From positions 86,078-150,077 of the forward strand of contig VBCA01000002.1 in assembly GCA_005881575.1 (NCBI GenBank): DNA of 64,000 nt, in the 5' to 3' direction. A model generated the notes under the pieces. The model was not told the origin of the DNA. It saw only the letters and a program-made list of their open reading frames with translations, and made no database searches. Below are positions 24,821 through 32,432 of this stretch, piece after piece (the first letter of the stretch is position 1; every line of letters begins with the position of its first letter). Source of the stretch: Betaproteobacteria bacterium. GTDB taxonomy: Bacteria > Pseudomonadota > Gammaproteobacteria > Burkholderiales > SG8-39. The translations under genes and the position numbers were made by a program.

Positions 24821-26014
24821 ATGCCCTACCGGAGCGGACGCCATTTCCTGCAGATCCCGGGGCCGACCAACGTCCCCGACCGCGTTCTGCGCGCGATCGA
24901 CCGCGCTACGATGGACCACCGTGGCCCCGATTTCGGCCCCATGGGGCTGGAGATCCTCGAGGGGCTGAAAAAAGTGTTCCAGACCCGCGCGCCCGTCGTG
25001 ATCTATCCCGCCTCGGGCACCGGCGCCTGGGAAGCCGCGCTCGTCAACGCGCTCTCGCCGGGCGAGCGCGTCTTGATGTTCGAAACCGGCCATTTCGCCT
25101 CTCTGTGGCACAAGATGGCGACCAAGCTCGGCCTCTCCGTCGACCTCGTCCCCACCGACTGGAGACGCGGCGTCGATCCGGCCGCGGTCGAAGCCAAGCT
25201 CGGGGAAGACCGCGAGCACCGGATCAAGGCCGTGTGCGTGGTGCACAACGAGACTTCGACCGGGGTCACGAGCCGCATCGGCGCGATACGCAAGGCGATC
25301 GACGCGGCAGGACACCCCGCGCTCTACATGGTCGACACGATCTCCTCGCTCGCCTCGATCGACTACCGCCACGACGAGTGGGGCGTGGACGTCACCGTCG
25401 CGGGCTCGCAAAAAGGCCTGATGCTGCCGCCCGGCCTGTCGTTCAATTGCGTGAGCGAAAAGGCGAGCAGGGCGTCGCGTACGGCTGCACTCCCGCGCTC
25501 GTATTGGGCCTGGGACGAGATGCTTTCCAACAACAAGAGCGGCTATTTCCCCTACACGCCGGCGACCAACCTGCTCTACGGCCTGCGCGAATCACTCGCG
25601 ATGCTCGAGGAGGAGGGCCTGCAAAACGTCTTCGCCCGCCATGCGCGCCACGCGGAGAGCACGCGGCGCGCGGTGCGTGCCTGGGGCCTGGAGATCCTGT
25701 GCGCGTCGCCCGAGGAATACTCGAACTCTCTCACCGCGGTGATGGTGCCCGCCGGACACGACGCCGACGCTCTGCGCAAGATCATCCTCGAAGCCTACGA
25801 CATGTCCCTCGGCACCGGACTGGGGAGGCTCGCAGGGAAAGTATTCCGAATCGGACACCTCGGCGACTTCAACGATCTGATGCTCGCGGGCACCCTCGCC
25901 GGCATCGAGATGGGCCTCGCTCTGGCGAACGTTCCGCACCGGAAAGGCGGCGTGCTCGCGGCGCTCGATCACCTTGCCGAGAGCGCACGGGCGGCCCCGC
26001 GCAAGGCGGCATAG
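24821..26014 (+). CDS. Class V aminotransferase (serine-glyoxylate aminotransferase-like)
   Basis: FLQIPGPTNVPDRVLRAID, MDHRGPDFGPM, VDTISSLASIDYRHDEWGVDVTVAGSQKGLMLPPGL. Confidence 0.95.
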   Translation: MPYRSGRHFLQIPGPTNVPDRVLRAIDRATMDHRGPDFGPMGLEILEGLKKVFQTRAPVVIYPASGTGAWEAALVNALSPGERVLMFETGHFASLWHKMATKLGLSVDLVPTDWRRGVDPAAVEAKLGEDREHRIKAVCVVHNETSTGVTSRIGAIRKAIDAAGHPALYMVDTISSLASIDYRHDEWGVDVTVAGSQKGLMLPPGLSFNCVSEKASRASRTAALPRSYWAWDEMLSNNKSGYFPYTPATNLLYGLRESLAMLEEEGLQNVFARHARHAESTRRAVRAWGLEILCASPEEYSNSLTAVMVPAGHDADALRKIILEAYDMSLGTGLGRLAGKVFRIGHLGDFNDLMLAGTLAGIEMGLALANVPHRKGGVLAALDHLAESARAAPRKAA

Positions 26015-30012: not shown

Positions 30013-30126
30013 CGAGGTTTTCCGCGGGGAGGAACGGCGACCGGAAGTCCGCTTGAAACCTCGCCTGGATTAGAATCACGCTTCAACGACCGCGCCAAGG
30101 CGGTCAGCCTTTAGGAGGAGAAAATC

Positions 30127-32103
30127 ATGGCACGCAAGGATCCGGGTCCTCAGGTCGATCGCCGCAAGTTCCTGAGCGGAGTCGCCGCGGCCGGCGCCGC
30201 GACCGCCGCAGCTGCGATGAGCACGCCCGTCGCGCGCGCCGCCGAGCCGGCGCCCGCGCCGCGAGTCCCTTCCGCGCTGAGGCCCACGCTGCAGGTCGCG
30301 GCCGCGGAGACCGAGACGCCGCGCGAGACGACGAACCGCATCGGCGGCAGGCCCGGGTCGGATTTCATGGTCGACGTCATCAAGACGCTGGGCATCAAGT
30401 ACCTGCCGGCGAACTGCGCATCGAGCTACCGCGGCATCCACGAGTCGCTCATCAACTACGGCGGCAACAAGATGCCGGAGTTCCTCACCTGCATGCACGA
30501 GGAGTCCGCGGTCGGCATGGCACACGGCTACTTCAAGATCGCCGGCAAGCCGCTGATGACGCTGTGCCACGGCACGGTGGGCCTGCAGCACGCCACCATG
30601 GCGATCTACAACGCGTGGTGCGACCGGGTGCCGGTGATCGTCGTCGGCGGCAACGACATGGACGCCGCGACGCGGCCGCCGGGGGTGCCGACCTTCCACG
30701 CCGCGCAGGACATCAACGCGCTGGTGCGCGACTTCACCAAGTGGGACGACACGCCGGTGTCGCTCGCGCACTTCGCGCAGTCCTTCGTGCGCGCCTACAA
30801 GATCGCGATGACACCGCCCTGCGGGCCGGTGATGATCTCGCTCGACGCCGGGCTGCAGCAGGAGGTGATCCGCAACCACGGCGACAAGCTCGCCATACCG
30901 CGCTACGTGCCCACCGCGGCCCCGCAGGGCGACTCGGGCGCGGTGAAGGAAGCCGCGAGGCTGCTCGCGGAGGCGCAGAACCCCGTCATCGTGGCCGACC
31001 GCGCCGCGCGCACGCCGAACGGCATCAAGCTCCTGGTGCAGCTCGCCGAGACGCTGCAGGCGCGAGTCATCGACCAGGGCAGCCGCGTGAACTTCCCGAA
31101 GACGCACTACCTCAGCGCGCCGCCGACCGCGGTCTCCGGCGCCGACGTGATCCTGGGCCTGGAGCTCTCCGATTTCTGGGCGACGGTGAACTCGTATACC
31201 GACAACGGCGAGAACGGCGGAATCGGCGCGAACGGCACGCGCATCAAGCCCGGCACCAAGCTCATCAGCATTTCATCGGTCGAGCTGAACACCAAGTCGA
31301 ACTACCAGGATTTCCAGCGCTTCCAGGTCATCGACGTGCCGATGGCGGGCGACGCGGAGGCGACGCTGCCGGCGCTCATCGAGGCGGTGAAGGCGGCGAT
31401 CCCCGGCTCGAAGAAGGCCGCGATCGAGCAGCGCGGCCAGGCGGCCAAGAAAGCGCACGCCGAGGCCGAGGCGCGCGCCAAGCAGGCCGCGGCGCTCGCC
31501 TGGGACGCGAGTCCCATCAGCACGGCGCGCCTGTGCGCGGAGACCTACGCCGCGGTCAAGGATCTCGACTGGTCGATCGTGTCCCAGTCGGGCAACGTCA
31601 GCGACTGGCTCAACCGCCTCTGGCCGCTCAGCGAGCACCATCACTGGATCGGCCGCTCCGGCGGCTACGGCGTGGGCTACGGCGCGCCGGCGTCCGTCGG
31701 CGCGGCGCTCGCCAACCGCGACGCCGGCCGCTTCTCGGTGAACATCCAGGCAGACGGCGACCTCATGTACGCGCCGGGGGTGCTGTGGACCGCCGCGAAG
31801 CACAAGATCCCGCAGCTCGCGGTGATGCACAACAACCGCGGCTACCACCAGGAGGTGATGCACGTGCAGCGGCTCTCGAACTTCCGCAACCGCCCGGCGA
31901 ACTACGGCGCCGACATGGGTCCGGTCGGCACGCGCATCGAGAACCCGGACATCGAGTACCACAAGCTCGCGGAGTCCATGGGCTGGTGGGCGAGGGGCCC
32001 GATCAAGGACCCGGCGCAGCTCGGGTCCGCCCTGAAGGAGGCGGTGAAAATCGTGCAGGCGGGCCAGCCCGCGCTGCTCAACGTGTGGACCCAGCCGCGA
32101 TGA
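30127..32103 (+). CDS. Thiamine pyrophosphate-requiring enzyme with twin-arginine signal
   Basis: DRRKFLSGVAAAGAATAAAAMSTPVARA Tat-like leader; acetolactate-synthase-like fold; C-terminal ADGDLMYAPGVLWTAAKHKIPQLAVMHNN ThDP motif. Confidence 0.9.
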   Translation: MARKDPGPQVDRRKFLSGVAAAGAATAAAAMSTPVARAAEPAPAPRVPSALRPTLQVAAAETETPRETTNRIGGRPGSDFMVDVIKTLGIKYLPANCASSYRGIHESLINYGGNKMPEFLTCMHEESAVGMAHGYFKIAGKPLMTLCHGTVGLQHATMAIYNAWCDRVPVIVVGGNDMDAATRPPGVPTFHAAQDINALVRDFTKWDDTPVSLAHFAQSFVRAYKIAMTPPCGPVMISLDAGLQQEVIRNHGDKLAIPRYVPTAAPQGDSGAVKEAARLLAEAQNPVIVADRAARTPNGIKLLVQLAETLQARVIDQGSRVNFPKTHYLSAPPTAVSGADVILGLELSDFWATVNSYTDNGENGGIGANGTRIKPGTKLISISSVELNTKSNYQDFQRFQVIDVPMAGDAEATLPALIEAVKAAIPGSKKAAIEQRGQAAKKAHAEAEARAKQAAALAWDASPISTARLCAETYAAVKDLDWSIVSQSGNVSDWLNRLWPLSEHHHWIGRSGGYGVGYGAPASVGAALANRDAGRFSVNIQADGDLMYAPGVLWTAAKHKIPQLAVMHNNRGYHQEVMHVQRLSNFRNRPANYGADMGPVGTRIENPDIEYHKLAESMGWWARGPIKDPAQLGSALKEAVKIVQAGQPALLNVWTQPR

Positions 32104-32432
32104 AGAGAACCCTGCTGCTCGTCGCGGTTCTCAGCGCGAGTCAGGCGGCCTTGGCAGCCGGCTCCGCCGACAAGGGCAAGACCGCCTTCGCGAAGCACGG
32201 CTGCTGGCAGTGCCACGGCTTCGCCGGGCAGGGCGGCGTCGCCGGCCCGAAGCTCGCGCCGGACCCGATGCCGCTCGAAGCGATGTCGGCTTTCGTGCGC
32301 AACACCCGGGGCGGGATGCCGCCGTACCAGAAGGCGATCCTCTCCGACGCCGATCTCGCCGACATCCACGCCTATCTGCAGTCGCTGCCGAAAGCGCGCG
32401 ACTACAAGAGCATTCCACTGCTCAACCCGTAG
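32100..32432 (+). CDS. Small cytochrome c, ATGA-overlapping with ThDP enzyme
   Basis: MKRTLLLVAVLSASQAALAAGSADKGKTAFAKHGCWQCHGFAGQGGVAGPKLAPDPMPLEAMSAFVRNTRGGMPPY. Confidence 0.92.
   Translation: MKRTLLLVAVLSASQAALAAGSADKGKTAFAKHGCWQCHGFAGQGGVAGPKLAPDPMPLEAMSAFVRNTRGGMPPYQKAILSDADLADIHAYLQSLPKARDYKSIPLLNP

Follow-up and report, generated by a model that had tools for sequence, protein, structure and literature searches.

Results

The window analysed in this study is a stretch of 64,000 nucleotides from a betaproteobacterial genome (86 contigs, 3.8 Mb). It contains an open reading frame (ORF) for a 658-aa ThDP enzyme whose stop codon overlaps, as ATGA, the start codon of an ORF for a small, predicted secreted cytochrome c, both being present as an earlier note on this DNA had claimed (Table 1). 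Pfam analysis of the 658-aa ORF detected TPP_enzyme_N (PF02776), TPP_enzyme_M (PF00205) and TPP_enzyme_C (PF02775), all above their gathering cut-offs, and identified the protein as a member of the ThDP-dependent decarboxylase/lyase superfamily. The closest named sequence family is that of the equivalog model NF006203 (PRK08327), against which the enzyme scored 220.9 bits (cut-off 456), while the curated benzoylformate decarboxylase (BFD) model NF005485 gave 156.6 bits (cut-off 493); the enzyme thus fell below the cut-off of both models. Paralogues of approximately 35% identity exist in the same genome. The 110-aa ORF yielded a Cytochrome_CBB3/Cytochrom_C match in Pfam and its product is predicted to be a class-I c-type cytochrome on the basis of this match, the CxxCH motif, a signal peptide recognised by eye and an MPPY motif, conserved in the partner cytochromes, which holds the likely axial Met. 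Family searches of the genome of the window retrieved both TatC and CcmF.

Table 1. Location of the gene pair and of its sequence features in the window
Feature	Position	Strand	Remarks
Ribosome-binding site AGGAGGA of the ThDP gene	30113..30119	+	Read from the sequence
ThDP-enzyme ORF	30127..32103	+	658 aa; predicted Tat-exported; decarboxylase/lyase superfamily
Tat signal peptide (predicted), residues 1-38	30127..30240	+	RR at 30160-30165; ...ARA
Catalytic Glu E125 (HEE motif), ThDP-activating (predicted)	30499..30501	+	Invariant in 38 Tat sequences; aligns with the BFD Glu
ThDP/Mg2+ motif D543-G544...N569-N570	31753..31836	+	Invariant in all 42 aligned sequences
H574-Q575-E576, Tat-family-specific, adjoining the ThDP motif	31846..31854	+	Invariant in 38 Tat sequences
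Class-I cytochrome c, secreted (predicted)	32100..32432	+	110 aa; CWQCH at 32202-32216

Conservation of the leader was assessed by scanning the GTDB species, each represented by one genome, with four aligned orthologues as the query, which returned 281 relatives. The best 80 loci, ranked on similarity of the ThDP protein alone and with the neighbouring genes ignored, were retained and supplemented with one Caballeronia plasmid locus to give 81 loci. The leader in the window consists of DRRKFLSG, a hydrophobic stretch and ARA, and an RR-x-F[LMI] leader is located near the start of the protein in 78 of the 81 homologous loci; the Tat motif reported in the earlier note is therefore not a chance occurrence. 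Two of the loci lacking RR begin at a contig edge (L060 and L095), while the third (L113) has no RR motif in the stretch of DNA available for it. In 76 leaders aligned on the motif, F is at the expected place in 75 and RR in 76, the latter being fixed by the use of the motif as the search term so that conservation of RR is tested only by the count of 78 of 81. The surrounding residues of these leaders vary, D, N, A or G, in place of S or T, usually stands before RR, and AxA-like sites follow downstream of RR/F. With a conserved twin-arginine, a hydrophobic stretch, an AxA-like site and TatC encoded in the genome, the enzyme has the sequence characteristics of a Tat substrate, and its predicted export by this route, together with its pairing with a cytochrome, is well supported. 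A paralogue in the same genome (L002, 38% identity) was considered as a further leader-bearing protein since the match spanned query residues 13-658, and was rejected as its true reading frame begins further downstream and lacks RR. The same genome also encodes a second, distant ThDP enzyme of 639 aa with three TPP domains (L115:6664-8583, contig C41, - strand), which carries the classical Tat motif SRRGFLKG without an adjoining cytochrome gene, and for which no close relative was found among 100 genomes of the order.

A frame with the C[WY]xCHG motif of the cytochrome begins within 60 nt downstream of the ThDP gene in 76 of the 79 loci for which enough sequence was available, and only 79 such frames occur in total over the 1.31 Mb of all loci. 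The absence of conserved linkage, which the earlier note had named as an argument against its own proposal, does not apply. The gap between the two genes has a median of 14 nt and is at most 30 nt in 63 of 70 loci, with an overlap in four of the 70, from which we conclude that a two-gene operon is the general arrangement and that the ATGA overlap is not. Distances between the cytochromes correlate with those between the enzymes (r = 0.76, with none of 1000 permutations as high), a correlation to which shared ancestry contributes. In an alphaproteobacterial metagenome-assembled genome (MAG), three Tat-ThDP/cytochrome c pairs lie in tandem, the whole pair being repeated (L100:7265-14834). Three acidobacterial loci (L106, L108 and L112) carry the Tat-ThDP gene without an adjoining cytochrome gene, and in L106 and L108 a small secreted DUF6152 protein is encoded nearby instead.

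In addition to the residues listed in Table 1, H148, which aligns with H70 of BFD, is invariant in the 38 Tat sequences, and S99 aligns near S26 of BFD, while the first G of the GDG motif is variable in the Tat family (S/A/G/N/P). The ThDP site is accordingly intact, and the lack of a functional site, another ground on which the earlier note would have been abandoned, does not hold. At the position of H574-Q575-E576 the four cytoplasmic homologues compared have F/Y-N-D; an acidic residue here presumably matches the catalytic glutamate of pyruvate decarboxylase, which we regard as a lead. An AlphaFold2 model of the enzyme (mean pLDDT 83.6) is confident from approximately residue 71 onward, and its top Foldseek matches in the PDB were an entry with the annotation benzoylformate decarboxylase, itself a putative ThDP enzyme, followed by benzaldehyde lyase and glyoxylate carboligase, with AHAS also among the matches. 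The alignment revealed that the segment bounded by F323-P324 and A339-D340 is approximately 10 residues shorter than in AHAS-like proteins and is devoid of their Gly-rich loop, which we take to be the FAD-contacting loop of AHAS and pyruvate oxidase; on this alignment, no FAD-binding loop of the pyruvate oxidase/AHAS type was found in the central domain. Since this loop is shortened, FAD is unlikely in the 658-aa enzyme, which we predict to be FAD-free as its nearest solved relatives are, and the FAD site suggested earlier is not borne out.

None of nine non-Tat homologues (approximately 35% identity) has an RR leader in its full sequence, and none is followed by a CxxCH frame within the next 900 nt. 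A single branch (SH-aLRT 99) separates the Tat group from all other sequences in a 53-row tree; the deeper branching of this tree is insecure owing to long end branches, with a plasmid sequence (L033) nearest to the cytoplasmic group, and does not indicate the ancestral state.

The loci are hosted by Betaproteobacteria, Alphaproteobacteria (mostly Hyphomicrobiales), Acidobacteriota and one MAG labelled Acidimicrobiia (actinobacterial), whose sequence clusters with the acidobacterial ones in the tree and whose label, as MAG labels can be, may be wrong. The pair consequently spans at least two phyla and probably a third, and is carried by many soil and freshwater bacteria. The Tat-ThDP family is rare: close orthologues in 200 genomes of the order were limited to the window's own genome and three others (71-80% identical), and an E-value of 1e-110 was reached by the former alone among 399 genomes of the phylum. 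A locus of 98% identity (L035) occurs in the MAG Betaproteobacteria bacterium BP_24, the scaffold name of which suggests soil, and a Novosphingobium plasmid protein of approximately 45% identity has a Tat leader and is followed by a cytochrome c and then by a second cytochrome. A pair of 79% identity (L088) was also encountered in a MAG titled Bordetella parapertussis, a name that is probably misassigned to an environmental MAG. The records of the named strains Limnohabitans sp. 15K, Caballeronia zhejiangensis and Novosphingobium sp. KACC 22771 contain the pair, which renders it testable now.

In the window, the neighbours of the pair include TctCBA, an enoyl-CoA hydratase, a BhcA-like aminotransferase and an FAD-oxidase/iron-sulfur protein of the 2-hydroxy-acid dehydrogenase type, none of which is generally conserved with it. 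The BhcA-like gene (aspartate-glyoxylate aminotransferase; 24821-26014, + strand), a few kb upstream, scored 478 bits against a cut-off of 650. Within 10 kb of the loci, where neighbouring genes were called by a simple longest-ORF heuristic, the recurring families are TctC (28 loci), Amidohydro_2 (13), MoCo dehydrogenases (12), UbiD and alpha/beta hydrolases (10 each), FAD monooxygenases resembling 3-hydroxybenzoate 6-monooxygenase or MhpA (9) and PQQ dehydrogenases (4), together with betaine-aldehyde-type dehydrogenases; gene clustering over this distance identified no conserved adjacent gene other than the cytochrome. Amidohydro_2 proteins of one cluster (L065:5288-6406 and L068:6845-7981, - strand) have Tat-like leaders (SKRGFLTG and AKRGWLSG) and are perhaps exported too. 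TctCBA and the enoyl-CoA hydratase, from whose position the earlier note had suggested an imported carboxylate as the substrate, were rejected as parts of the module as the hydratase cluster is common to two near relatives only, and the neighbourhood was likewise set aside as proof of a substrate given its variable genes.

Discussion

The gene pair, its leader and its intact ThDP site recur across bacterial lineages, and an exported ThDP enzyme encoded with a cytochrome c, export being predicted from the leader, is a real and conserved module. Of the earlier reading, the Tat leader, the ThDP site and the dedicated cytochrome are upheld by this conservation, while the FAD site and the association with TctCBA and the hydratase are not. 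We consider it reasonably probable that the pair constitutes a periplasmic redox module, in which a Tat-exported, FAD-free 2-oxo-acid decarboxylase/oxidase forms a carbanion and the dedicated cytochrome c acts as its oxidant. The enzyme would fold and bind ThDP-Mg2+ in the cytoplasm before its export by the Tat system, while the cytochrome would leave by the Sec route, with its haem supplied by the Ccm machinery. A 2-oxo acid (or a related acyloin or aldehyde) would add to ThDP and CO2 would be lost, leaving a ThDP-bound carbanion/enamine without involvement of FAD; this carbanion, which is protonated in a plain decarboxylase, would here be oxidised by the cytochrome in two one-electron steps, after which the oxidised acid would be released and the electrons passed to the respiratory chain. 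ThDP carbanions are oxidisable by one-electron acceptors such as ferricyanide. That the pair represents a widespread periplasmic ThDP oxidoreductase with direct transfer from the ThDP carbanion to the haem of cytochrome c, with no flavin or iron-sulfur centre, and hence a novel kind of extracytoplasmic oxidative decarboxylation, is a more tentative proposition, for which the chances appear to fall a little short of even.

The recurring neighbours loosely point to the catabolism of aromatic compounds or carboxylic acids. The substrate is perhaps a polar 2-oxo acid, possibly derived from the breakdown of aromatic compounds or 2-hydroxy acids, and since the neighbourhoods vary, no substrate is claimed here.

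The presence of a cytochrome gene at the same loci is no proof of ThDP as the electron source, as another enzyme may supply the electrons. The exported protein may thus be a non-oxidative decarboxylase/lyase of the BFD or BAL type whose periplasmic product is an aldehyde, with the cytochrome serving a later oxidation of the aldehyde or alcohol by another enzyme. Both of the nearest solved relatives, benzoylformate decarboxylase and benzaldehyde lyase, are indeed non-oxidative, and the PQQ and Mo-type dehydrogenases within 10 kb of some loci could fulfil such a role; no dehydrogenase is conserved beside the pair, however, whereas the cytochrome is, and the pairs are duplicated as two-gene units, which renders this explanation rather unlikely.

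A bound flavin that relays electrons to the cytochrome, as in a pyruvate-oxidase-like enzyme, would be consistent with the TPP_enzyme_M match of the central domain and with the presence of FAD-binding AHAS and glyoxylate carboligase among the Foldseek matches, yet the shortening of the FAD-contacting loop and the FAD-free nature of the best sequence matches make it improbable. We consider it most improbable that the leader does not function as a Tat signal and that a cytoplasmic enzyme is merely co-transcribed with the cytochrome: the residues that mostly precede RR, which are not S or T, would fit such a scenario, but RR and F are kept in an otherwise variable leader and followed by AxA-like sites, the cytoplasmic homologues have no leader, and a secreted partner is encoded downstream in nearly all loci. 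The preferred reading remains that of an exported enzyme which would pass electrons to its own cytochrome, its chemistry being, as we infer, the oxidation of a 2-oxo acid.

With a cytochrome of its own, a conserved clade of exported enzymes would shift 2-oxo-acid oxidation to the periplasm, where it would spare the uptake of the substrate and send electrons straight to the cytochrome c pool. Should the electrons pass directly, haem would join the short list of acceptors of ThDP enzymes (flavin, iron-sulfur and lipoamide). It is this electron path that merits testing.

Decarboxylase-type ThDP enzymes have been studied as cytoplasmic or organellar proteins. A search confined to open-access literature found no description of a ThDP enzyme that is exported by Tat and accompanied by a cytochrome, the matching words in PMC8880074 being confined to a gene table, and the module is apparently undescribed so far. 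It belongs to a known enzyme superfamily and its fold is not new: BFD and benzaldehyde lyase, which head the PDB matches in the profile search and rank among the best in the fold comparison, have the same three-domain ThDP fold and catalytic Glu and likewise have no FAD loop. The enzyme in the window differs from both (approximately 20% identity) in its Tat leader, the H-Q-E that follows NN and its partner cytochrome c, while the cytoplasmic ThDP proteins of the PRK08327 type (NF006203) have neither the leader nor the cytochrome. PoxB (pyruvate oxidase/pyruvate:quinone oxidoreductase) uses ThDP to decarboxylate a 2-oxo acid oxidatively at the cytoplasmic side and delivers the electrons to the respiratory chain by means of FAD and quinone; the logic proposed here is shared with PoxB, whereas the enzyme in the window combines a Tat leader with a cytochrome c partner and lacks the FAD loop. 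PQQ methanol dehydrogenase and cytochrome cL exemplify an exported oxidising enzyme that is encoded with its own small cytochrome c, and the pair described in this study would follow the same design with ThDP in the place of PQQ, Mo or flavin.
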